DNA of 64,000 nt from Runella sp. SP2 (GTDB taxonomy: Bacteria; Bacteroidota; Bacteroidia; Cytophagales; Spirosomataceae). The stretch spans positions 7,122,501-7,186,500 of the forward strand of contig NZ_CP031030.1 in assembly GCF_003711225.1 (NCBI RefSeq). The letters run 5' to 3'. A program made the position numbers and the translations under genes. Of the stretch, positions 2,290 to 20,284 are shown piece after piece. Each line of letters starts with the position of its first letter. Within the stretch, counting starts at the first letter, position 1. The notes beneath the pieces were generated by a model. That model ran no database searches, was not told where the DNA came from, and was given only the letters and a program-made list of their open reading frames with translations.

Positions 2290-2691
2290 GTGCTTTTAAT
2301 CAATCGTACTTGCTTTGGAGAGTTTCCTACCTATCGTTCAGTTCCTGTTGCCCGATTTCATTTTGGACTGGGCGTCCCCGAAAATTTTGAATTGACCACT
2401 ATTAACCGCCAAGAGGGTGTCTTCGATATCCATCTTACAGAGAAAAATACAGACGCTCGAGACCCTGAAAGGAAAAATCTGCTTTCCAAAGGTTTTTTTG
2501 CACCCATAACTGTCCAAGACTTTCCCCTGCGTGGGCATAAGGTCTTTCTTCACATTAAGCGCCGCCGATGGCTCCATACCCAAACCGGTAAAGTAGTTTA
2601 CAGAGACTGGGCAGAAGTAAGCAAAGGAACGCGAATGACAAGTGAATTCGCGAATTTTTTAAAAGGTATCAGTGGATACGAATCCGAGTAG
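2290..2691 (+). CDS. ISAon1-type transposase N-terminal region protein
   Basis: Encodes a small basic protein with the signature of the N-terminal partner of ISAon1 transposases: an IHLTEKN segment, GFFAPITVQDFPLRG, KVFLHIKRRRW, then a C-terminal GTRMTSEFANFLKGIS stretch. It probably helps bind the element ends. The frame is open back through the duplicated inverted repeat to 2182; the GTG at 2290 is my choice because it is the first plausible start inside the element, and it is uncertain. Its end overlaps the next frame by 20 nt (2672-2691), so the second protein is made by re-initiation at a GTG or by frameshifting. Confidence 0.65.
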   Translation: MLLINRTCFGEFPTYRSVPVARFHFGLGVPENFELTTINRQEGVFDIHLTEKNTDARDPERKNLLSKGFFAPITVQDFPLRGHKVFLHIKRRRWLHTQTGKVVYRDWAEVSKGTRMTSEFANFLKGISGYESE

Positions 2692-3671
2692 TACAAATTC
2701 AATCGGAGAGTTTTATGGCGTGAAGGGTCGGAATTTGCTTCGTCACTACAAAGATTGCCAAGGTGGATTCAAACATTGGAATCAAAAGTCTCATGCTAAA
2801 CTATGGCTGTTATACCCTCAAAATATGGGAACTCATCTTTCCATTGATGAAACCTCGTTATCTGATGGGGAGTTGTATACGATTCTTACCAATAAAGCTG
2901 CCAAAGGCAGTAAAGGAAGTATTGTGGCTATCATTTCGGGCACCAAGGCTGAAACAGTGATTGAGATTCTTCGAAAAACTCCTCAAAAGCTTCGTAAAAA
3001 AGTCGCTGAGATTACGCTGGACATGGCCAGCAATATGGCTTTAATTGCCAAGCGATGTTTCCCTTGCGCCACACAGGTAACTGACCGTTTTCATGTCCAA
3101 AAGTTGGCTTCGGAAGCCTTACAGGAAATCAGAATAAAACACCGTTGGCAAGCAATAGATGCTGAAAATGAATCTATTGAGCAAGCTAAAGCCACTCAAA
3201 CAGACTACCAAGCGGAAGTACTCTCCAATGGCGATACGGTGAAACAGTTATTGGCACGCAGCCGGTATGTGCTCTACAAAAAGCAGAAAGATTGGACAGA
3301 GAATCAAAAACAAAGGGCAACACTACTTTTTGAGCGCTATCCTGATTTGAAAAAAGCTTATGAGTTAACCATGGCCTTGAGCCATATTTTTGAGAATACT
3401 ACTGATAAACTTTATGGATTGGCCAGACTCGCCAAATGGCATGAGAAGGTGCGGCAATCCGGCTTTAAAGCCTTCAACACGGTGGCGCGTTCTATCCAAA
3501 ATCATTATGAAACCATCCTTAACCGCGGCGGCGGACCGCTATTTTGATAATCGAAGTACGAACGCGTCTGCCGAATCTTTTAATGCCAAGATTAAAGCTT
3601 TTCGAGCTCAGTTCAGAGGGGTAAGGAATGTAGAATTCTTTCTGTATCGGCTAACTCAGATATATGCTTAA
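2672..3671 (+). pseudogene. ISL3/ISAon1-type DDE transposase, frameshifted
   Basis: The reading frame from a GTG at 2672 shows ISL3 DDE transposase features: LSIDETSLSDGELYTILTNK with the first Asp, TLDMASNM with the second, and TDRFHVQKLASEAL. It ends early at 3547 in a spurious RGGGPLF tail. The expected continuation YFDNRSTNASAESFNAKIK, containing the catalytic Glu, and the normal C-terminus FFLYRLTQIYA are found in another frame up to 3671. The break is explained by 16 extra bases at 3524-3539. Removing them joins ETILN directly to YFDNR. The truncated product lacks the third catalytic residue and should be inactive. Confidence 0.85.
3524..3539 (+). other. 16-bp GC-rich insertion that breaks the transposase
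   Basis: The sequence CGCGGCGGCGGACCGC has 15 of 16 bases G or C, in an element that is otherwise AT-rich to moderate. Its length (15+1) shifts the frame exactly between the codons for ETILN and YFDNR. It is inferred from the family's conserved protein sequence, not from an aligned DNA copy. Confidence 0.7.
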
Positions 3672-6208: not shown

Positions 6209-9200
6209 TTAATTTACTTTTACAACTTTCAGCGTTGCTTGTTTTTCAGGCGTCGTCACCTTCAAGAAATACATGCCAGTTGGTAGTTCGCTTACGCCAA
6301 ACTCCTCTTGATGGGTGTTCGTTTCGGGTACAAATTGACGGCGTAGCACCTCCCGACCCGATGCATCCGTTAAAGCCGCTTGCACCATGTGTCCCTTGCT
6401 CTCTTGCACTTTTAAGCGCAGGATGTTGCTGACGGGGTTGGGCATGACTGTGGCGAAAGACCCGTTATCAGTTATCTGTTTTCCGTTATCCGACCCTTGC
6501 CCTTTGCTTTTTGCCTCTTCGCTCTCCGCTGCGCGTGCTGCTCCCACGCCTACTCCATCTTTCGACTGGATTCTGAACCAGTACTCTTGATAGGCCAAGA
6601 CATTGCCTTGTGGTTGACGCGTCGAGGGGTAAATGCTACCCCAACCCTTCATATCCCAATAACGGATGCCTAACTTGTACAAACCCTTGGGTAAACCTGC
6701 ATCATATATGTTACCACCTGAACCGTTGTCTTGGTAGAAACCGTAGGCGGGGTGGTTTTGAGCGTACAACTCCGTCCAGCCCTCGCGGTTGGCGTACATG
6801 AAGTATGGCGCGTTGTTCTCGTGCGTGTTAAATGAACGAATTACCCCCATTTCTGGCGTCGCCAACATGTCGAAGGTCAATGAACCATCGGTGCTTAATC
6901 CGCAAGCTTCTACGTTGATTGTCCAGTAACGAGGAGCCATTTTGTTGGCATTCTCAACGTAGTATAAGGTCGGATTTACCTGCGTACTCTGCTCCAATTC
7001 GGGGCCACCGTCGCGGGTGATGAATTGGCTTGTCCACAACGACTTATCATTCGCAGGCTTTACTGCCGATTTTGATTCGCCGATGTTAATCAACGTCACT
7101 ACAAAAGCATTCCAGTAAACATCTTTGCGAACACTTTCTGAGCTCTGACAACCGCCTTCAAATAGACACTTCGCCCAGTACGTTTGCTTGGTCACGTTGC
7201 TAAATGCCACTTCAAAACTTGGCGCGGTGACGCCCGTATTCCAAAACGTTTGGCTTCCTGCGGGGCAATTGGCCGAAATCGTGACCGTTGTGCCTGTGCA
7301 AACAATCTCTTGACTTGCCGTAATCACGGGAGCAACTTGCGTTGGCGTTAACGTAAACGTTACCACATTGCTCTTTTCACTTACACAACCATTTTCCGTC
7401 TGACAACGAGCGTAATACGAGGTCGTTTGGCTGGGAACAGTCGATGGAAGGCTTGGCAGAGCAACATTCGTTGTGGCATTGTACCAAACAGTGCGCAAGC
7501 TTCCACAAGTTGACTGTCCACTGAAACTGGCTGTCGCGTCACAACTAGCTGTAGATGACAATGAAACCGTCGGAGCTGTTGGAATCGTCACCAATTTTAA
7601 GCGCATTACCCCTGATTCAGATTCTACACACGAAGGCGTTCCGTCTGATTTGCGGCAACGTACGCGGTAGTTGTGGAATTGATTGTCCACCAAACCTACG
7701 GGAACTCCTGCACTGTACTCGCCACCGTCAACTGAGTAAAGAATCACTTCGCCAGCAGCACAGTTCGCATTAAATGTGAGCGTAGTAGTCACTAAGCTAC
7801 AGACTTCTTTGGTTTCACCTACGGCAACCGTTACACCATCCACCAACATCGACACATTTTGCGGAACGGAAGCACGGTTATTTATCGTCAATTCTATCAC
7901 GCCCGAATAGGTCGAAGCGCAATTGGCATCACAAGCCGCTTGGTAGCGGTGGGGTTGGTTATTGGACGGCTGGGAAACTGGTGCTGTCGCCGACCAGTTG
8001 CTCCATGCACCACTACCAACTTGAACTCGCCAAACGGGATTGCCAACCACACACGAACTCGAAACCCCAAACTGTAAACCGTTAACAGGATTGGCATCCG
8101 TATCGCACAAAACGGGGTTGTTGCCTTCGTTTAGGGTTTGTTGAAGGGTAGTCAACGAAATAGTTGGTGGAACAACTACCGTCACCATCACATCCACAAA
8201 TCCACTCAATTGAGGGGCTAGTTCACAACGAACTTTGTAAACCGTACTTGCCGTAAGTGTTGGTGTCACCAGCGGTGAGCCCACAAACAACTGGGTGGTG
8301 CCCGCCGCGTTGTACCATGTTACTTGTCCCACTGCACACGAAGCCGTCAATGATGCCGTCGCGTTTTTGCAAATGGTCACGTTGGTAGTATTTGTTGGAA
8401 GTTCCACCGAAGCAATGACGGTCAATACCGCATCGTTGCCATCGCCACCTACGTAACTGATGCGGGCGTTTAACTGACTTCCCAAAAATGGTGCAATCGT
8501 TGACCCTTCGGGTAAGCCGTTGAACGTACCTTGAATGGCATCGCTTCCGTCGTTGTTGACTAGCACAAACGTTTGTCCCAATACTGGTATGTGGCTACCG
8601 CTGAGTACCAAATCAAGTCCCGACAAGTTGACCGACCCTTCTACTTTTAACTGACGGTAGTCGGTATCAGCCGTAGTTCCGTTGATGACAATGGCCAAGT
8701 CATTGCCCGAGGCAAACGACACGGTTCCGACGTTGACATCCGTTCCCGCTGCCGTTGGATTGATTCCTGCTGCTGCGTTGATGACAAGGTTACCTCCGTT
8801 GGTCGCCAAGGCCGAAGCGTTCAAATTAACTGCCCCTGCCGTCGAGAGGTTGACGTTGGTGGCTGCGGCGCGGCTGATGGGCGCACTGACAGTAATGGCG
8901 CCGCTGTTGGCATCACCGATTTGGAGCGTACCCGCCGTGATGCGGTCAAGTTCGTCGTCGGAAAGGCTCAAAGGACCGCCCAGAGGGTTTGTTGACGAGC
9001 CTAAGTCGATGTTTACGCCGTTGGTGTAAGGACGAAGTATGACACTGCTGGCCGAGTTGGTGCTGATAGTCGCCGTATTTTTGATGTCAATACTGTTGGT
9101 AATCAGCGAAATGTTTCCTCCCATGCTCGCTGTTGTAATTTGTCCACCAGAAAGTGATTCAATCTCAATACCCACGCCGCTTCCACCTTCGATGCCAGTT

Positions 9201-12200
9201 ACGGTGATGGCACCTCCTGAGGTGCTATTGATAGTCCCACGAATATACACTCCTTTATTATCAGGCCCAGTTGAGCTTCCAGCCGTTCCTTGAATGTTGA
9301 TTGCTTTCCCATTCCCCGCCGTAATGGTGCCATTTAAGTCAACCCCTACACTTCCATTGGATGCTGTAGCATCAGCTCCTCCTATACCAATAATCGTAAT
9401 GGTGCCATCGTTGGTTGTGACCAAGTTACGAACTTCTACTCCATCGCTAAACGACTGGTTGGCACCCGTACCTTCTATATAAATACTACCAGTACCCCCC
9501 GCAAGGACTTTTCCACTTAGACCAATTCCCGTATTGCCCGTAGGATTATTGAATGAACCATTGGTTCCTTGACCGCCTTGACCAATGAGTCGGATATTAC
9601 CGTTATTGGTACTAATTTGGCTATTGGAACCAGAAAGCTGAAGACCATAATTAAACGAAGCGGTGCTTGGTGAGCTACTGCCAGTACCTTGCACGGTGAC
9701 ATTCCCAGTTCCTCCCGCCGCAATACGGCTAGTAGCATCAAGTAAGACACCTTTGGCGCTACCTGTGCTTGCTCCTCCTGCTTGGCCTGTAACGCTAATG
9801 TGGCCATTGGTAGAAGTGATGGCACTCGATGTTAGAAAAACACCTTGATGGTATCCATCTGTACCAGTTCCGCCAGTGCCTAGTACCGTTACAGTTCCCG
9901 CTCCACCCGCAGAAATTAGTCCTGAACTTTCAAGATTAATACCATGGTTGGAAGTCGCATCACTACTTCCCCCACCTTGGCCTGTTACGCTTACATTTCC
10001 TCCTGAAGAGGTGATCGTACCTGCATCGAGGTGTACCCCAAAGGTATTACCATCGGTCTGGCTAGCTCCTGTGCCTTGTACAGTAACCGTACCCGTTCCA
10101 CCTGCGGTAATCATTCCTAGGTCGGTGACTGCCACTCCGTGTTGGTTATATTCGTCCGCAAGTCCGCCACCTTGTCCTGTTACGCTGACGTTGCCGCCTA
10201 GTGAGGTTATTTTGGAATTCGTACCTGTAACCAATACGCCAATGTTTTCATTGCCCGAGGCAGTACCACCCGTTCCTACTACTGAAAGTGGAGCGTTACC
10301 TCCCTCTATTAGACCACCACTATTGACCGAAACCCCTGCTTTGTAGCCGGCAACCCCGCTTTTCCCTTTAATGGTTGCTTGCCCACTGCCTGTTACTTTT
10401 AGTGAGCCGCCATTGACATCAACACCAGCAAAATCGCCCGATGAAGGCGTTGTCTGTTGGTTGGCTTCTACGACTAAATTTCCGTTTTGTGTTAGTAAGC
10501 TACCCCCTGTATTAATGGTTGCATTTTTGCTTACTTTCACCGTTGCCGTACCTGTGCCAGAGAGGGTGACAATCGCATTAGCAGCGATACTCAAAGCATC
10601 CGTTCCAGGCGTGGTAGCATCATCATTTTGCAAGTCTAAATCCAAGTTAGCATTGCTGACAAACGTGATGTTGCCATTCAAATTCACTTCGTCATCGCCC
10701 GTGCCACCGTTGATGGTCAATGTAGGCAATTGGGTTGTAAATGCCCCAACGTTGATGATGTCGTTGCCTCCAGCAGTGTTGACAGTAATACTGGTTTTTC
10801 CCGAAAGTACTACCTCCGCAGGCGTGGTAAAGGCCGTAGTGATACCGCCGTCGATGTTATACGTTTTACCCGTGACGTTGAAGCGGATTTTACCGCTGTT
10901 TTCACTTACCTCCAGCGTTTCGCCCGTGCCTTTGGCATCGGTAATGACGATGTTTCCGCTTGTGGTCGTGATGGTGTAGTCGGGAGAGGTACAAGCAATG
11001 TTTTGAGCATCACCCGTGATTGTCCAGCCTTTGTTGGTAATCAAATTATTACGCGCCGATTGAGCAGTACAATATTTTAGCCCTAGTGCGCCCAAACTCC
11101 GACCCGTCACTGTCCCCTGATTGAAGCCAATCAACGTCGCATCGTAGTTGACCTCGCTCATTCCACAGTTGTCTAGGAAGTTGCCTAGATTAACGCTGGC
11201 ATTGAATTTGGTTCCCCAAGCCGCCAAGCTTTGATTGAAAGCCGTCGCATTTTGAAACATTAACGACATGTTAGTGACATTACTCACGTCCCAATTGCTA
11301 ATATCTTGGTTAAACGAAGTCGCTTCTTGAAACATACGTGACATCCCCGTTATGGTGCTTGTATTCCACGTACTGATATTTGCGGGGCCATTGAGAATCG
11401 TACAATTAGCAAACATGGATGAAAGCGACGTTACGCCAGACAAGTTGGGGACATCTGTCGCGGTAACGCTCAGGTTATTACAACCATTGAAAGCACTGCT
11501 CATAGATGTCCAAGCAATATCGCCCCATTGACTAATCGTCAGTAATTTAGAAGCATCTCCTACGGAGTTGAAATGAATCCTTGGGAAATCCCCTCGAATA
11601 GCCACTGTGTAAGTACCTGCTGTACCGTAATTATGGGTAACGCTCCCCGTTACTGCCAACTCATCATAAATACCGTCGTTGTTCCAGTCCACGTCATAAT
11701 TGTAGCCTGTACCTAAGGTCGGGATGGTGATGGAAGTAGCGTTGGAAGTACCTGAGTTGTCAGTTTTCCAAGTTGTGATAAAAGGCTTTCCACCGTAACC
11801 TTCAATGGCAAAGGTGTAAGGCGAGCCAGGGTCGTTGCTCGGAATGCTGATAGTGGCCGTGCGTTTACCCGTTGTTGTAGGGTCAAACGTTACCGTAAAG
11901 GTTGTTGAACTACCTACAGCAACAGTCGTTGAAGAAGGCTGCGTGATGGTAAAATCGGTGGTTCCTCCCGTGATTGTTCCCAATGTCAAAGCTCCCGCTC
12001 CCGTATTTTCGATGGTGAAAGTACGTGTCACCGAGCCACTTGGCACTGAGACAGGCCCAAAATCTGTGTGGTCGGTGATAATTGGTGAGTTATCACCACT
12101 TACGATGCTAACGTTGTTGCCTTTGAGGTTAATCTCTGGCGCACACGTAGAAGAAAGAGCATCCCCCGTGATAGTCCAGCCTTTGTTGGTAGTTAGGTTC

Positions 12201-15200
12201 GTACGAGCCGATTGAGCAGTACAATATTGCAAACCTGTTGCTCCCAAATTTCGACCTGTCACAGTGCCCTGATTGAAGCCAATTAGCGTAGCGTCGTAGT
12301 TGGCAATGCTCATGCCGCAGCTACTCAGCATCTCTGTTAAATCAACACTGGCATTGAATTTGGTTCCCCAAGCCCCCAAGCTTTGATTAAAAGCCGTTGC
12401 CCCCAAAAACATCCCAGTCATATTTGTCACCTTACTCACATCCCAACCGCTGATGTTTTGATTGAAAGCCGTAGCACTAGCAAACATCCCAGTCATATCT
12501 GTCACCTTACTCACATCCCAACCGCTGATGTCTTGATTGAAAGCCGTCGCACCAGCAAACATCGTACTCATATTTGTCACCTTACTCACATCCCAACCGC
12601 TGATGTCTTGGTTGAAAGAAACAATACTACTGAACATGTTTGACATGTCCTGGACACTACTCACGTCCCAAGCACTAATGTCTTGGTTGATAGCTGTAAT
12701 AGCCGTAAACATGTTACGCATGTTGGTTACGTCGTTCAAATCAGGCTTATCGCTGGCGTTAATCTCTAAATTGGTACAACCCTCAAAAGCGTCCTCAAAA
12801 CTTTTCCAATCAATGTCTCCCCATTGATTTACTGTTAATATTTTACTTATGTCATTATCATCATGAAAATAAATTCGTGGAAAAGCTCCCCTAATAGCTA
12901 CTGTGTAGGTGCCTGCCGTACCATAGTTATGGGTAACGTTGCCCGTCAGCCCAAACTCATCATAAATACCATCATTGTTCCAGTCCACGTCGTAGCTATA
13001 GCCCGTACCCGTGGTCGGGATTTCAATAGAGGTACTGTTTGAACTAGAACTACCTAAGTTGTCGGTTTTCCACGTCGTAATGAAGGGCCTTCCACCGTAG
13101 CCTTCAATGGCGAAGGTGTAAGGGTTTTCGTCGGTATCGTTGTTTGGAATGCTGATGGTAGCCGTGCGTTTACCCGCTGTGGTAGGGTCAAACGTCACCG
13201 TAAAGGTGGTAGAACCATTGGCAGGAATAGTCGTCAACGAAGGTTGTGTGATGACAAAATCAGTGGTTCCACCTGTGATTGTTCCCAACGTCAAGGCCAC
13301 TGCCCCCGTATTTTCGATGGTGAACGTACGCGTTACCGAACCGCTTGGCACTGAGACTGGGCCAAAATCTGTGTGATCAGTAATGATAGGTGTATTATCT
13401 CCACTTACGATGCTGACGCTGTTGCCTTTGAGGTTGATTTCAGGAACACAGGTGCTGCTTAAAGCATCGCCCGTAATGATCCACCCTTTTCCTCCACTTC
13501 CAGTCGCTCCCACTAAAGTAGCGCGCGCGGCGGCAGCAGCACAGTATTTCAAGCCTGCTGCTCCCATTTCTCTATTCGTGACTGTACTTTGGCTAAACCC
13601 AGTGAGGGTAGCATCATAGTTCGCAACACTCATCCCGCAGTTATCAAGAAAAAACCTTAAATCAACGTTCGCATTAAGTTTTGTTCCCCACGAAGACAAA
13701 CTTTGGTTAAAGGCCGTTGCACCGTAAAACATACCGTACATGTTCTCTACAGCCCTGATGTCCCACGAGCTCAAGTCTTGATTAAAAGAGGGTGCTTGAT
13801 AGAACATCAATTTTATGTTCGTAGCTGCGCTTACAATCCACCCACTTATGTTTTGATTAAAAGCAGTTGTACCATGAAACATCGATTCCATATTTGTCAC
13901 TGCACTTACCTCCCAACGACTGATGTCTTGATTGAAAATGACTGCATCTCGAAACATTGATCTCATGTTAGTAACAGCACCTACTTGCCAATTACCGATG
14001 TCTTGATTAAAGTGACTAGCCCCGTCGAACATTCCAGACATATCATTGACCGTTTGCACATCCCACCCGCCAATGTTTCCATTAAAATCGGTAGCTCCGT
14101 AAAACATTTGTGAGGTCGAAAGCGCTTTCGTTGGCTGCCAACTTCCAATGTTTTGATTGAAACGGAAGGCCTCAAAGAACATCCGTCTAAACGTGGTAAC
14201 ATTTCTTACATCCCAGTTCGTGATATTCCCGTTAAATGCGTCTGCCTGGCTAAACATCTCTTCCATCGAGGTCACGGCACCTACTTGCCAGTTGTTGAGC
14301 GATTGATTAAAAGACGCTGCTAAAGCAAACATGTTTCTCATGTTATTTACGGCTCTCACATCCCAACCACCAATATCCTGATTGAAAAGTACACATGCAG
14401 CAAACATATACCCCATGTCGGTGACAGAACTTACATTCCAGCTACCTATGTTGCTTGGTCCTGTTAGTTTTAGACAGCTAGCAAACATTGCATTGGTAGA
14501 AGTAACATTTGTTAAGTCAGGAACATCTGTGGCTGATACATCTAAATTTACACATCCTTTAAAGGCGCTTTCCATGCTTGTCCAAACGCCACTTCCCCAC
14601 TGAGTTACCCCGAGTAACTTTGCTGCTTCACCCGAAGCATTGAAGAATATTCGTGGAAAAGTCCCTCTGATAGCCACTGTATATGTACCTGCCGTACCGT
14701 AGTCGTGGGTAACGTTGCCCGTCAGCCCAAACTCATCATAAATACCATCGTTATTCCAGTCCACGTCGTAGCTATAGCCCGTACCCGTGGTCGGTATTCT
14801 AATAGAGGTACTATTTGAACTACCTGGGTTGCCTGAGTTGTCGGTTTTCCAAGTAGTGATAAAAGGCGTTCCACCGTAGCCTTCGATGGCGAAGGTGTAA
14901 GGATTTTCGTCGGGGTCATTGCTCGGAATGCTGATGGTAGCCGTACGTTTACCCGCTGTGGTAGGGTCAAACGTCACCGTGAAGGTGGTTGAACCATTGG
15001 CAGGAATAGTCGTCAACGAAGGTTGTGTGATGACAAAATCGGTGGTTCCTCCCGTGATTGTTCCCAGCGTCAAAGCGCCCGCTCCCGTATTTTCGATGGT
15101 AAAGGTGCGCGTCACCGAGCCGCTTGGGCTTGACACTAAAACAGGGCCAAAGTCTGTGTGGTCGGTAATGATAGGTGTATTGTCGCCCCTTGCGATATTT

Positions 15201-18106
15201 TGACTGTTGCCTTTGAGGTTGATGTCGGGTACGGCAGGGGCGGACACTGTAATCACCACATCATTGTTACCGGTTCCTCCCGTGTAACTAATCGTCGCAT
15301 TGAGGCCGCTTCCTCGGAAGTTAGGAATCGTTGCTCCTTGTGCTAGACCGGTGAACGTACCCACGATAGGGTCGGTACCGTCGTTGTTGACGATGGTAAA
15401 TACTTCGTTCCCTGTTGGCACGTAAGTACCCGCCAAAAGCAAATCTACACCCCTTAAATCGATTTCTCCTTCTACGTTGAGTTGGGAGTAAGTGCTGCCC
15501 GTACCGTCGCCGAGGGTAGTGCCGTTGATGGTGATTTGCAAATCACTGTTAAACGACAGCGTGCCGGCAATGACATCCGTCCCGTTGAAGGTAGGTTTCA
15601 CGGCTTTGGGTGACGTGCCTGGGTCGAGTAACAGCGTACCGCCGTTGGTATTGATACTTCCGCCACTGATGATGACATCGCCGCCGCTGATGAGTTGCAT
15701 GTTGGTAAGCGTTGGGCGAGTAATTCCAATCCCAACGGTGATATCGCCCATCGTAGCATCACCTACGACAAGCGTACCCGTGCTGATTCTGTCAAGTTCA
15801 AGATCCGATAAAATAAGGGGGCCATTTGCACCATCAGGGGCAAGAGAAAAATCAATCGCCGTACCTGCCGTGAAGGGTTTGAGCGTGACACGGCCTGACG
15901 AATTAGTGCGAATGTCAGGGGAATCCACTATTCGTAAACTGTTGGTAATGATTGCAATATCACCGCCATTTACTTCCGTGGTAATGCTAGAGACGGGAGC
16001 CCCAATTTGTTTTGACATATAAATACCATAAGTCGAACTGCCGCCGCCTGATTTTCCCGTGAGCGCAATATTCCCTCCCGCAGACTTAACCAAGCCTTCC
16101 AATGTTATTCCATGGTTTGAGACACCAGTAGAGGTTCCACCTTCTCCTGTGATAGTTACGGTTCCAGTGCCTCCAGCTGAGATTTCGCCACTTTGGCTCA
16201 TCGAAAGTCCGTAGTTCAATTGGCTAGTTCCACTGCCTCCGCCGTAGGCATTGACCGTGATACTCCCGCCAACTGAAGTGATTTTGCCAGAAGTTTGTAG
16301 ATTAACTCCTATGTTATTGTTTCCCGTTGAAGCACTTCCTCCTCGCCCAGTGACCGTCACCGCACCCGTTCCCGCAGAGGTAATTTCACCAGAAGTAGTA
16401 AGTCTTATCCCGTCATTGCCAATACTGCTTCCTGTTCCACCACCTGTACCCTCTACGGTAACGGCTCCGCCCAAAGAGGTTATTTTAGCCGTACTTCCTT
16501 GAATGAGAATACCGTAATTACCGATTCCACTCGACGCACCACCGTTGCCAATTACTGAAACGGTATTGCTACCTCCATAGATGACTCCTCCAAAGTTTAA
16601 GAAAATACCTGCCTGACCACCCGATGCGTCATTTCCTCCTTTTCCTTTGACCGTCAGAGCACCCGAACCTAGCACTTGCAATTGGGTACTAGTAGTCATG
16701 GATACACCGATGAAATTACCAGCAGTAGGACTTGTTTGTTGGTTTGCTTCTACTGTGAGGTTACCATTGTTCGTTCCGAGTGTGCTTCCATTATTGAAAA
16801 CTACATTTTTACTTACTTTGAGAGTCGCCGCCCCTGTTCCTTGAAGTATAATGTTAGCATTAATGGCAAACGTGATGGCATCCACTCCTGGGCTAGCGTC
16901 ATCGTTCTGCAAATCCACATCTAAGTTGGCATTGGTCGCAAAAGTGATGTCTCCGTTGAAATTCACTTGGTCGTCGCCCGTGCCGCCGTTGATGGTTAGT
17001 GAAGGGAGATTGCTGCCGAGAGCGCCGATGTTGATGATGTCATTGCCGTCAGCGGTGTTTACTGTGATGCTTGCTAAACTACTCAAAGGTACATCCGCGG
17101 GAAAGTTGGTGGTAGGGCCATTGTTTAGACTGAATGTTTTCCCTGTCACATTAAAACGGATGTTCGTACTATTTGGAGTAATGTCCAACGTTTCCCCCGT
17201 TCCTGTTAGGTCGGTGATGACTAGGTTGTTGCCTGAAGTACTGATGTTATAATCAGGCTGGCCAGCATTGTTAAAGGCAAACGGAACTACATAAAAACAT
17301 CCGCCCGTATTCGGGGTGATTTTTGCATACAGGGTTTGCGAGCCGGAAGGCAAACTATTGGAGGGTGTAAACGTATTGGGGGCGGTAAAGGTACCTGCCG
17401 AAGCAGTGGCGGCGGCATCGGTGAAGATTCCGTTTACGGTGCCGTTAAAAGCATTTCCATAGATAAAAATAGGATCGGAGTTATTGACAAATAGGTAATT
17501 ATTTTGAATTCCAGCAGCTGAACCCGTATTTTTTTTAAAGACTCCAGTATTGGTAAAAGTGCCGAAATATTGCGTATTGCCGGGAGCATGCCCGCTTATA
17601 AAACCAAAACCATCGGCTATGATCATTCCATAGTTATTGCAAACACCTCCTAAATTGAATGTTCCGTTAGGAACAAACACTTTCCCGCATACTTCATTTT
17701 TAAATTCAAGGATTGTTAAAGGGGTTGACGAAAAGTCTTCAGCATAAATACAATAATGGGTGAGATTACCATTCACTGTAATAGTTCCTGAGTTTGAAAT
17801 AACCCCACTTCGCAGAGTAAAAAAATTGTTTATAAAATCAGTTGTAACGGTAAATGAGCCCAAAGAAGTTATCGTCAGGTCATTACCTACAAAGGCTTTA
17901 TTGACAGTGACTGCGGTATTAATAACCGGATCATGCGGAACGTTATCCAAAATAGTTATATCATCATTAGCCGTAGGTACACCGCTTGGCGACCAGTTGG
18001 AGGCAGTATTCCAGTCAGAGTTGGTAACCCCAATCCAATTTTTATCAACGGCAAACAAATTTTGGCTTATCAGCAAAGCCATTAAGAGATAAATGAGTTT
18101 TTTCAT
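6209..18106 (-). CDS. Giant T9SS-secreted surface protein with BspA-like (DUF285) repeats
   Basis: A single 3965-residue frame. Order: signal peptide (1-19, ending NLFA); a NWIG..WNTASNWSPSGVPT adhesin-like start; a Gly/Thr-rich beta-strand repeat region (about 285-958); then three modules, each a choice-of-anchor-D/ASH-like domain (about 961-1076, 1555-1675, 1992-2115) followed by PKD-like DVDWNNDGIYDE and DUF285 25-residue repeats (about 1150-1550, 1755-1985, 2180-2370); a second beta-strand repeat region (about 2375-3225); Cys-containing Ig-like/SprB-like repeats (about 3235-3675); and a C-terminal T9SS type A sorting domain (about 3889-3965, PNPVSNILRLKV ... GMYFLKV). Family knowledge suggests export by T9SS and cell-surface or matrix adhesion. 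The ligand is unknown. It stands alone between terminators. Confidence 0.92.
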   Translation of the reverse strand: MKKLIYLLMALLISQNLFAVDKNWIGVTNSDWNTASNWSPSGVPTANDDITILDNVPHDPVINTAVTVNKAFVGNDLTITSLGSFTVTTDFINNFFTLRSGVISNSGTITVNGNLTHYCIYAEDFSSTPLTILEFKNEVCGKVFVPNGTFNLGGVCNNYGMIIADGFGFISGHAPGNTQYFGTFTNTGVFKKNTGSAAGIQNNYLFVNNSDPIFIYGNAFNGTVNGIFTDAAATASAGTFTAPNTFTPSNSLPSGSQTLYAKITPNTGGCFYVVPFAFNNAGQPDYNISTSGNNLVITDLTGTGETLDITPNSTNIRFNVTGKTFSLNNGPTTNFPADVPLSSLASITVNTADGNDIINIGALGSNLPSLTINGGTGDDQVNFNGDITFATNANLDVDLQNDDASPGVDAITFAINANIILQGTGAATLKVSKNVVFNNGSTLGTNNGNLTVEANQQTSPTAGNFIGVSMTTSTQLQVLGSGALTVKGKGGNDASGGQAGIFLNFGGVIYGGSNTVSVIGNGGASSGIGNYGILIQGSTAKITSLGGAVTVEGTGGGTGSSIGNDGIRLTTSGEITSAGTGAVTVTGRGGSASTGNNNIGVNLQTSGKITSVGGSITVNAYGGGSGTSQLNYGLSMSQSGEISAGGTGTVTITGEGGTSTGVSNHGITLEGLVKSAGGNIALTGKSGGGSSTYGIYMSKQIGAPVSSITTEVNGGDIAIITNSLRIVDSPDIRTNSSGRVTLKPFTAGTAIDFSLAPDGANGPLILSDLELDRISTGTLVVGDATMGDITVGIGITRPTLTNMQLISGGDVIISGGSINTNGGTLLLDPGTSPKAVKPTFNGTDVIAGTLSFNSDLQITINGTTLGDGTGSTYSQLNVEGEIDLRGVDLLLAGTYVPTGNEVFTIVNNDGTDPIVGTFTGLAQGATIPNFRGSGLNATISYTGGTGNNDVVITVSAPAVPDINLKGNSQNIARGDNTPIITDHTDFGPVLVSSPSGSVTRTFTIENTGAGALTLGTITGGTTDFVITQPSLTTIPANGSTTFTVTFDPTTAGKRTATISIPSNDPDENPYTFAIEGYGGTPFITTWKTDNSGNPGSSNSTSIRIPTTGTGYSYDVDWNNDGIYDEFGLTGNVTHDYGTAGTYTVAIRGTFPRIFFNASGEAAKLLGVTQWGSGVWTSMESAFKGCVNLDVSATDVPDLTNVTSTNAMFASCLKLTGPSNIGSWNVSSVTDMGYMFAACVLFNQDIGGWDVRAVNNMRNMFALAASFNQSLNNWQVGAVTSMEEMFSQADAFNGNITNWDVRNVTTFRRMFFEAFRFNQNIGSWQPTKALSTSQMFYGATDFNGNIGGWDVQTVNDMSGMFDGASHFNQDIGNWQVGAVTNMRSMFRDAVIFNQDISRWEVSAVTNMESMFHGTTAFNQNISGWIVSAATNIKLMFYQAPSFNQDLSSWDIRAVENMYGMFYGATAFNQSLSSWGTKLNANVDLRFFLDNCGMSVANYDATLTGFSQSTVTNREMGAAGLKYCAAAAARATLVGATGSGGKGWIITGDALSSTCVPEINLKGNSVSIVSGDNTPIITDHTDFGPVSVPSGSVTRTFTIENTGAVALTLGTITGGTTDFVITQPSLTTIPANGSTTFTVTFDPTTAGKRTATISIPNNDTDENPYTFAIEGYGGRPFITTWKTDNLGSSSSNSTSIEIPTTGTGYSYDVDWNNDGIYDEFGLTGNVTHNYGTAGTYTVAIRGAFPRIYFHDDNDISKILTVNQWGDIDWKSFEDAFEGCTNLEINASDKPDLNDVTNMRNMFTAITAINQDISAWDVSSVQDMSNMFSSIVSFNQDISGWDVSKVTNMSTMFAGATAFNQDISGWDVSKVTDMTGMFASATAFNQNISGWDVSKVTNMTGMFLGATAFNQSLGAWGTKFNASVDLTEMLSSCGMSIANYDATLIGFNQGTVTGRNLGATGLQYCTAQSARTNLTTNKGWTITGDALSSTCAPEINLKGNNVSIVSGDNSPIITDHTDFGPVSVPSGSVTRTFTIENTGAGALTLGTITGGTTDFTITQPSSTTVAVGSSTTFTVTFDPTTTGKRTATISIPSNDPGSPYTFAIEGYGGKPFITTWKTDNSGTSNATSITIPTLGTGYNYDVDWNNDGIYDELAVTGSVTHNYGTAGTYTVAIRGDFPRIHFNSVGDASKLLTISQWGDIAWTSMSSAFNGCNNLSVTATDVPNLSGVTSLSSMFANCTILNGPANISTWNTSTITGMSRMFQEATSFNQDISNWDVSNVTNMSLMFQNATAFNQSLAAWGTKFNASVNLGNFLDNCGMSEVNYDATLIGFNQGTVTGRSLGALGLKYCTAQSARNNLITNKGWTITGDAQNIACTSPDYTITTTSGNIVITDAKGTGETLEVSENSGKIRFNVTGKTYNIDGGITTAFTTPAEVVLSGKTSITVNTAGGNDIINVGAFTTQLPTLTINGGTGDDEVNLNGNITFVSNANLDLDLQNDDATTPGTDALSIAANAIVTLSGTGTATVKVSKNATINTGGSLLTQNGNLVVEANQQTTPSSGDFAGVDVNGGSLKVTGSGQATIKGKSGVAGYKAGVSVNSGGLIEGGNAPLSVVGTGGTASGNENIGVLVTGTNSKITSLGGNVSVTGQGGGLADEYNQHGVAVTDLGMITAGGTGTVTVQGTGASQTDGNTFGVHLDAGTITSSGGNVSVTGQGGGSSDATSNHGINLESSGLISAGGAGTVTVLGTGGTGTDGYHQGVFLTSSAITSTNGHISVTGQAGGASTGSAKGVLLDATSRIAAGGTGNVTVQGTGSSSPSTASFNYGLQLSGSNSQISTNNGNIRLIGQGGQGTNGSFNNPTGNTGIGLSGKVLAGGTGSIYIEGTGANQSFSDGVEVRNLVTTNDGTITIIGIGGADATASNGSVGVDLNGTITAGNGKAINIQGTAGSSTGPDNKGVYIRGTINSTSGGAITVTGIEGGSGVGIEIESLSGGQITTASMGGNISLITNSIDIKNTATISTNSASSVILRPYTNGVNIDLGSSTNPLGGPLSLSDDELDRITAGTLQIGDANSGAITVSAPISRAAATNVNLSTAGAVNLNASALATNGGNLVINAAAGINPTAAGTDVNVGTVSFASGNDLAIVINGTTADTDYRQLKVEGSVNLSGLDLVLSGSHIPVLGQTFVLVNNDGSDAIQGTFNGLPEGSTIAPFLGSQLNARISYVGGDGNDAVLTVIASVELPTNTTNVTICKNATASLTASCAVGQVTWYNAAGTTQLFVGSPLVTPTLTASTVYKVRCELAPQLSGFVDVMVTVVVPPTISLTTLQQTLNEGNNPVLCDTDANPVNGLQFGVSSSCVVGNPVWRVQVGSGAWSNWSATAPVSQPSNNQPHRYQAACDANCASTYSGVIELTINNRASVPQNVSMLVDGVTVAVGETKEVCSLVTTTLTFNANCAAGEVILYSVDGGEYSAGVPVGLVDNQFHNYRVRCRKSDGTPSCVESESGVMRLKLVTIPTAPTVSLSSTASCDATASFSGQSTCGSLRTVWYNATTNVALPSLPSTVPSQTTSYYARCQTENGCVSEKSNVVTFTLTPTQVAPVITASQEIVCTGTTVTISANCPAGSQTFWNTGVTAPSFEVAFSNVTKQTYWAKCLFEGGCQSSESVRKDVYWNAFVVTLINIGESKSAVKPANDKSLWTSQFITRDGGPELEQSTQVNPTLYYVENANKMAPRYWTINVEACGLSTDGSLTFDMLATPEMGVIRSFNTHENNAPYFMYANREGWTELYAQNHPAYGFYQDNGSGGNIYDAGLPKGLYKLGIRYWDMKGWGSIYPSTRQPQGNVLAYQEYWFRIQSKDGVGVGAARAAESEEAKSKGQGSDNGKQITDNGSFATVMPNPVSNILRLKVQESKGHMVQAALTDASGREVLRRQFVPETNTHQEEFGVSELPTGMYFLKVTTPEKQATLKVVKVN
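11575..15230 (-). repeat. Three near-identical DNA copies of an anchor-D plus PKD-like module
   Basis: Segments 11575-12138, 12871-13442 and 14645-15230 are strongly similar at DNA level, including many identical stretches such as CCGTAGCCTTCGATGGC-type runs and TGTGTGGTCGGTAATGATAG. Each encodes the TFTIENTGA..LTLGTITGGTTDF domain and the DVDWNNDGIYDE segment. The intervening DNA encodes DUF285 repeats of different lengths. Confidence 0.85.
12385..12680 (-). repeat. 75-bp tandem repeat array (DUF285 units)
   Basis: Successive units of 75 bp encode FNQDISGWDVSKVTNMSTMFAGATA and close variants. At least three units here are nearly identical in DNA. Older, more diverged units of the same 25-residue period occur at about 13690-14480 and 11210-11400. 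Confidence 0.85.
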
Positions 18107-20136: not shown

Positions 20137-20188
20137 AGTTTGGGAAAGAGGAGAATAAAACTGGTGCCGCTAAACTGATATTTTTTCA

Positions 20189-20284
20189 ATGCCAATCATC
20201 ATTTTACAACTCTTGTTTCTTTGCTTATTCTGCTCTTGCTCTTGTTTTGCGCAACAGGCGTCCTCACTACTACAGCAATTTTAG
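20189..20284 (+). pseudogene. Signal-peptide stub of a lost exported protein
   Basis: A 31-residue frame reading MPIIILQLLFLCLFCSCSCF, then AQQASSLLQQF and a stop. The hydrophobic core ending in CFAQ looks like a complete secretion signal with a cleavage site, but nothing follows. It lies downstream of a good promoter and directly before the MntA/HepT module. It could instead be a genuine tiny peptide or chance. Confidence 0.3.

Follow-up and report, generated by a model that had tools for sequence, protein, structure and literature searches.

The giant gene and its genomic setting

The window analyzed here is a 64,000-nt stretch of the Runella sp. SP2 genome. It contains a single uninterrupted frame of 3965 aa that occupies exactly positions 6209-18106, as a previous sequence-only reading had proposed; the gene lies on the minus strand, which that reading had not given, and it is indeed the largest ORF in the window. 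A same-strand H+-pyrophosphatase gene is located 112 bp downstream. A cytochrome c-like gene, also on the same strand, is 209 bp upstream, and an NHL-repeat (SMP-30-like) gene of the same orientation lies upstream as well. A consensus scan detected 28 promoter-like and 20 terminator-like sites, against 23.9 and 18.5 in shuffles, respectively, both within one standard deviation; the gene may either lack an operon partner, as the previous reading proposed, or share an operon with these neighbors.

Several other features were observed in this neighborhood. An ISL3-type transposase is encoded on the plus strand at window positions 2672-3547, two genes from the giant gene and alongside a short ORF (2182-2691); an R. 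defluvii stretch (L205) that aligns with the transposase region (85% identical) has a similar ORF at 604-1554. A pair of plus-strand ORFs (463/456 and 158 aa) separates the NHL-repeat gene from a dnaE-like gene in both R. defluvii (L206:2650-4490) and R. limosa (L208:2344-4163). The longer of these ORFs contains a P-loop-like stretch. Around positions 20147-20216 the window aligns on both sides of this ORF pair but lacks the ORFs themselves.

The architecture of the protein is given in Table 1.

Table 1. Features of the 3965-aa protein and their positions in the window
Feature	Position	Strand	Remarks
Start codon and apparent signal peptide, residues 1-19	18050..18106	-	hydrophobic MKK... start in sequence
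N-terminal 'W..SDW...NW.P.GVPT' region, residues 20-260	17327..18049	-	
Beta region A, residues 284-958	15233..17257	-	residues ~350-690 modeled as beta-helix
Module 1	13448..15229	-	ASH 960-1079, PKD-like 1083-1208, 11 PARCEL/DUF285 25-residue repeats (from 1209), Cys-containing cap
Module 2	12143..13444	-	ASH 1555-1672, PKD-like 1676-1800, 5 PARCEL repeats, cap
75-bp tandem array inside module 2	12383-12618		TRF
Module 3	10991..12139	-	ASH 1990-2106, PKD-like 2110-2232, 3 PARCEL repeats, cap
Beta region B, residues 2375-3232	8411..10984	-	homologous to region A
Ig_7-type domain, residues 3237-3299, upstream of shared region	8210..8398	-	Pfam
Shared 'constant' C-terminal region, residues 3307-3965	6212..8188	-	wholly or largely in 41 genes; mosaic
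Four Cys-containing Ig-like domains in shared region, residues 3307-3665	7112..8188	-	
194-residue core domain, residues 3660-3853	6548..7129	-	most conserved part; without Pfam match
Type A T9SS sorting domain, residues 3888-3965	6212..6445	-	

The order suggested previously (beta region, three modules, beta region) is correct, and beta regions A and B are related far beyond chance (phmmer, 535 bits). The interpretation as a giant T9SS protein also holds, as both Pfam (PF18962, 39.9 bits, cut-off 27) and NCBIfam (TIGR04183, 36 bits, cut-off 23) detected a type A sorting domain at the extreme C-terminus. Among the domains proposed earlier, DUF285, three ASH-type domains, Ig_7 and Por_Secre_tail were found above the Pfam cut-offs, whereas the PKD-like label is weak, since the PKD_4 match was sub-threshold (Pfam, E 0.59). 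NCBIfam agreed on the PARCEL repeats and on three choice-of-anchor-D domains. The latter matched in three stretches, with both NF012200 (184 bits, cut-off 45) and the ASH-type PF15780 (70.5 bits, cut-off 27), and the tandem 25-residue PARCEL repeat was recognized by DUF285 (1e-221) and by TIGR02167 (11 stretches). A custom profile counted 19 copies in total.

We also looked for palindromes in the PARCEL DNA, and two simple tests gave no excess. In the first, the best 60-nt self-complement matches in the three arrays were within the range of 20 shuffles, and the second test yielded a single 10-nt palindrome in the three arrays.

Predicted export, fold and probable function

The genome encodes the SprA translocon (PF14349, 461 bits, in a 2468-aa frame), and the sequence evidence supports the prediction that the giant protein is exported by the T9SS. 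In a structure model of the outer part, residues 350-690 form a beta-helix with pLDDT mostly 80-93; the mean for the whole model, whose input alignment consisted of 4 rows taken from repeats of the window itself, was 62, and the PARCEL and ASH parts had low to middling confidence. The best VIA-align matches of the beta-helix were the secretion domains of EtpA (Z 25.9, 288 residues aligned) and HMW1 (Z 25.6, 280 residues), followed by the EtpA adhesin (Z 21.5), with lyases and tailspikes ranking below among the families listed. Foldseek alone found no match to the outer part at E<=0.001, and a PDB sequence search with the whole protein gave no hit. Judging from the modeled fold, the giant protein may be adhesive or may have another binding role.

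The tail was modeled as four Ig-like domains, a poorly modeled core and the sorting domain; the modeled C-terminal domain (CTD) superimposed on the mirolase CTD with Z 11.1 and rmsd 1.8 over 75 residues. When the shared region was submitted to Foldseek, the first seven matches were GhpA stalk fragments. A relationship to GhpA was nevertheless set aside: VIA-align placed it at Z 9.9 among generic Ig chains, and a profile search of PDB sequences gave three weak hits that were confined to the sorting domain, none of them to GhpA. We regard this similarity as an analogy only.

Alternatively, the protein could act as a secreted enzyme or as a toxin-like effector instead of an adhesin. Beta-helix folds do include PL6 lyases and tailspike depolymerases, and sister members of its gene family carry M36 peptidase or GH16 domains. 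However, no enzyme family was found among the Pfam or NCBIfam matches of the giant protein at E<=0.001, and adhesin and two-partner secretion domains outrank enzymes structurally, so that we consider an enzymatic role unlikely and a binding role the better candidate.

A common C-terminal region in 41 genes

The earlier description of the gene had missed that it belongs to a family: its C-terminal region of ~659 residues is common, wholly or largely, to 41 genes of the SP2 genome. When the last 381 residues were searched against this genome, 50 matches were obtained, of which 41 were long (51-100% identity over most of the length) and nine were fragments, the sorting domain alone or the Ig part alone. 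The 41 frames comprise 308,589 bases; 40 of them encode 1194-4873 aa and one encodes 534 aa. Most family genes (27/41) are located within 3.33-3.99 Mb, and 35/41 are on the minus strand. The local match to the giant gene begins at residue 3296-3326 in 27 of the 40 paralogs, earlier in seven and later in five; for the remaining one (L071) no BLASTP tail match was listed, though it was matched in the own-genome tail search. Thus, as far as these alignments indicate, homology to the giant gene reaches approximately residue 3307. Within the genome, constant copies are ~72% identical in DNA (median of 630 pairs).

Upstream of this boundary, the front parts are largely unrelated and range from PARCEL arrays and beta-helices to M36 peptidase, GH16 and laminin-G domains. 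When the 41 variable regions were searched against Pfam (E<=0.001; counts refer to the best 25 of 53 and the best 25 of 44 families), Ig_7 occurred in at least nine, beta-helix in five, Calx-beta in at least four and DUF285 in three, with M36 peptidase, GH16 and laminin-G as single cases. The presence of enzyme domains in some members means that the family, taken as a whole, does not consist purely of adhesins.

These counts bear on a different explanation, in which PARCEL arrays are horizontally mobile coding elements and the real unit of interest, and the host protein is incidental. PARCELs were described as mobile, variable repeats in the available part of the original report (PMC2996958). 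DUF285 occurs in 8/13 Runella genomes, in SP2 it also occurs near C1 4.42-4.43 Mb, in frames (385-839 aa) that have no tail hit, and an ISL3-type transposase is nearby in the window (2672-3547). On the other hand, just 3/41 variable regions match DUF285 (E<=0.001, among the families listed), so the family is independent of this domain, and dyad symmetry in the three arrays of the giant gene did not exceed that of shuffles in the simple test, apart from the one 10-nt palindrome. We therefore consider this explanation unlikely too.

Two further observations concern individual loci. Two tail fragments at C1:3535658-3536208 contain in-frame stops (two TGA and one TAG in the first, one TAG in the second) and are apparently a single decayed copy, which suggests that the cluster loses family genes as well. 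The DUF285 frames of C1:4.423-4.431 Mb (L011; 385-839 aa, without a shared-tail hit) form a plus-strand cluster, and a similar cluster with frames of 517-783 aa is present on contig C2 of R. defluvii.

Distribution of the tail and its conserved core

At E<=1e-40, the tail was detected in 5/13 Runella genomes, with 41, 54, 39, 2 and 3 matches, and in none of the other eight. The 54 matches of R. defluvii correspond to ~49 genes (five were hit in two pieces), and the 39 are the tail copies of R. limosa. All 79 named loci with tail relatives are from Runella, and, among the matches listed, all but two are from R. defluvii or R. limosa.

A profile of the 194-residue core matched 5/222 genomes of the taxonomic family, all Runella. 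Among 395 genomes sampled across the phylum, which included only one other Runella genome among those listed, the one match was SP2 itself. For a 207-residue stretch containing the core, Pfam gave no match at E values of up to 5, and pLDDT in the core model was mostly under 50. Purifying selection is strong, the median dN/dS being 0.031 for the core and 0.091 for the Ig part. This uncharacterized and strongly conserved domain may be a key part of the system.

Recombination among the tails

We compared variable and constant regions between genomes in 36 reciprocal-best variable-region pairs, in some of which coverage was as low as 0.3. The constant region of the partner was the closest one in only 10/36 pairs. 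Because 20 R. defluvii and 14 R. limosa genes were compared, out of 54 and 39 matches, the closeness ranks given here are minimal. The histories of variable and constant parts disagree in 26/36 pairs. In the pair L063/L080, DNA identity is 92-99% in the variable part and drops mostly to 63-83% in the constant part (0.88 in one comparison window); the upstream flank matches (94.7%) and the downstream flank has no match.

Eight pairs had a variable-region identity >=80% with coverage >=0.8 both ways. Their downstream flank, tested over a stretch of mostly ~600 bases, matches in three and not in five. In the five without a downstream match the constant region of the partner ranks 4 to 14 and is never the closest, and in the three with a match it ranks 1, 1 and 8. 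The gene L060 could be followed further. In R. defluvii, its downstream flank immediately follows another member of the family (96% over 590 bases). The identity of L060 to its variable-region partner falls from 0.91 upstream to 0.53 at the 3' end, whereas that to its flank partner rises from 0.47 to 0.92. There is no single clean breakpoint, and identities are mixed over most of the constant region. By these alignments, one exchange can be placed within the shared region.

Within the SP2 genome, a Sawyer-type runs test (5/41 genes with <=600 aligned constant residues excluded) was significant at global p<0.05 for 71/630 pairs. As uneven conservation could inflate this result, the test was redone on third codon positions only; 21/630 pairs were significant, with 27/36 genes involved, including the giant gene and L057. 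Identical tracts of 100-650 bases occur between constant copies, and the median dS between the giant gene and 35 paralogs is ~1.3. The distance between genes in the genome was weakly correlated with tail identity (rho -0.18), the median identity being 0.79 for 35 pairs closer than 20 kb and 0.72 for 441 pairs more than 200 kb apart. Taken together, the sequence comparisons indicate that the tails are recombination mosaics and that many orthologous fronts carry non-orthologous tails.

It could be argued that the tail was maintained by purifying selection alone in a family that grew by duplication and plain vertical descent, with no exchange. The low dN/dS values of both core and Ig part are consistent with this idea, as are the 10/36 reciprocal-best pairs in which constant regions are closest. 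However, long identical tracts are difficult to reconcile with the median dS, and the significant pairs on third positions, the conflict in the remaining 26 pairs and the exchange mapped to the constant region all argue against it. Vertical descent without exchange is therefore improbable, and recombination between tails is the preferred interpretation.

In addition, the neighboring tails L065 and L066 (C1:3.538-3.561 Mb) are 98.7% identical in DNA, and L066 and L067 have an identical tract of 255 bases though they are just 74% identical overall. Both appear to be cases of very recent conversion.

Orthologs and the history of the blocks

The giant gene has syntenic orthologs in R. defluvii and R. 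limosa, with the same pyrophosphatase and cytochrome genes adjoining. The R. defluvii frame encodes 4711 aa and has three modules with 11, 4 and 3 PARCEL repeats; that of R. limosa encodes 4260 aa and has two PARCEL-bearing modules with 4 and 2 repeats. As both keep the beta-modules-beta plan and differ in repeats, modules and N-terminus, this plan is real and the length of the gene is species-variable. It is very improbable that collapsed or mis-joined repeats created the giant frame or apparent tail swaps: the family is repeat-rich and the two relatives are draft assemblies (50 and 80 contigs), but the SP2 assembly has 4 contigs and 99.98% completeness, plan and flanks are the same in two other species, frames are open over 1194-4873 aa in 40/41 members, and copies with ~72% DNA identity should not mis-join easily.

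The N-termini differ most. Residues 1-134 of the window gene correspond to 903 and 918 residues in the two orthologs, including two ASH domains, and residues 135-260 have only 44% identity to the R. defluvii ortholog. No donor of this N-terminus was found at high identity among 76 family proteins (best full-length match 34%).

The near-symmetrical plan had previously been attributed to internal duplication of a whole block. This was not supported in that form. In a tree of 16 beta regions, the A regions of the three orthologs form one clade and the B regions another (each 100/100), and the same tree gave no support for A and B as nearest relatives. A recent whole-block duplication is ruled out by this separate orthology over three species, and the beta regions are, according to the tree, older than the split of these species. 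In the ASH tree, modules 1-3 of SP2 and R. defluvii group together (81/94), nested in a broader clade of the same module type (97/93) to which one R. limosa module of the giant-gene locus also belongs. Modules 1 and 2 have 86% DNA identity over 584 bp. Therefore, the modules were amplified separately and expanded once the beta regions were in place.

A tandem block does exist in the family, as the paralog L057 has the plan ASH-ASH-beta-ASH-ASH-beta, although such a block does not explain the recent past of the giant gene. Two R. limosa ASH domains at the giant-gene locus group with those of the L057-type paralog, and L102, which is probably the counterpart of L057 in R. limosa, carries a module of the giant gene's type. 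These relationships suggest that central parts were exchanged between loci. Another recent internal amplification is seen in L095 (R. defluvii C4, 2814 aa), which has three almost identical ASH domains with branch lengths of 0 to 0.07.

We also analyzed the tail of the giant gene itself. It has in common with L057, 3.7 Mb away, an identical constant-region tract of 185 bases, for which the third-position test value was reached by 0/1000 permutations; the giant gene was part of six significant pairs in the first runs test and of one on third positions. In DNA, the constant regions of five paralogs (0.861-0.876) are closer to it than that of the syntenic ortholog (0.853). In contrast, the ortholog is closest over the last 29 codons (0.92 vs 0.62-0.83 in three paralogs compared), and at the protein level the constant region of the R. 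defluvii ortholog ranks first among the 20 R. defluvii copies compared (93.2%). Since the flanks are in place on both sides relative to the orthologs and the protein tail is closest to the ortholog, we interpret the L057 tract as conversion and not as a tail swap. The giant gene thus appears to take part in conversion without an outright swap of its tail.

A model for the family

We propose, with a probability of roughly 0.7, that the giant protein is a T9SS-exported, probably adhesive protein of a family that has a constant tail and variable fronts and was diversified by homologous recombination. The protein would pass through Sec and the T9SS to the cell surface, sorted by its type A tail. 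The outer part, with its two beta-helices and three ASH/PKD-like/PARCEL modules between them, most likely binds cells, polymers or surfaces, and the Ig-like stalk would hold it away from the cell. The constant region of ~2 kb would serve as a homology block among the 41 genes, so that recombination between copies, either as conversion tracts or as exchanges that also change the downstream flank, could re-pair variable parts with tails. Repeat arrays inside the variable part would also change in copy number. A RecA-type agent may carry out these exchanges, and selection may favor diversity.

A further-reaching possibility, which we put forward tentatively, is a 'constant-variable' surface repertoire, in one Runella clade, of ~40-50 loci with a common end of ~2 kb, in which fronts move between loci by homologous recombination. 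The 3' tip would stay with the locus, as observed at one locus and suggested at the giant gene. Beta-helices, PARCEL arrays, Ig-like chains, peptidase and glycoside hydrolase would be interchangeable fronts, and exchange might still be active within populations. The genus-restricted core of 194 residues could be a common presentation or anchoring device usable by any front.

Approximately 4% of the SP2 genome (309 kb of 7.6 Mb) is given to the 41 T9SS-tailed genes on one common tail. These genes provide a natural setting in which to test how surface functions can be recombined on a constant export and anchoring unit.

Comparison with known systems

In the literature on T9SS or Runella paralog families, gene conversion and domain shuffling, covered mostly as titles and abstract openings, no such family was found, and the accessible portion of PMC5808330 contained no relevant precedent. 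Several known systems are similar in part. PARCEL/DUF285 surface proteins, as presented in the available text of PMC2996958, also have 25-residue tandem repeats with varying array length in otherwise gene-specific hosts. In Runella, however, the arrays are joined to an ASH/PKD-like unit, three times over between beta-helices, in a T9SS cargo, and simple tests revealed no dyad symmetry in the DNA. With the TPS/FHA-type adhesins EtpA and HMW1 the giant protein has in common a predicted beta-helix fold (structural match Z ~26 for the model); these proteins use two-partner export, whereas the Runella protein carries a T9SS signal and has no sequence match to solved structures.

In polymorphic toxins, the toxin part is the variable part. 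The TANFOR toxins of Bacteroidetes likewise join a common part to differing parts, but the common part named in the accessible section of PMC7073777 is N-terminal. The constant part in Runella is C-terminal, and the parts that vary are surface domains of a structural or enzymatic kind. Aureispira GhpA is, according to the portion of PMC11205867 available, also a large Bacteroidota T9SS surface protein with a tandem Ig-like stalk. This stalk fold is common to many Ig chains, and the analysis of the Runella protein gave no evidence for hooks or predation.

The P. gingivalis proteins RgpA, Kgp and HagA work in a similar way. The available part of PMC5266723 describes surface-protein diversification by recombination among a few T9SS adhesin genes: the proteins are exported by the T9SS, adhesin modules are reused between genes, the C-terminal sorting domain is conserved and variants are attributed to recombination. 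As in the HagA/Kgp type, the Runella family has modules common to several genes and recombination between copies; this likeness concerns how the systems work and not homology to CAD domains. The P. gingivalis system, as far as described there, differs in having few genes and a conserved CTD of ~80 residues (PMC5266723), compared with 41 genes, a region of ~659 residues and many unrelated front families in Runella. What is new relative to the known systems is thus the scale, the long constant tail, the diversity of the fronts and the mapped exchange.
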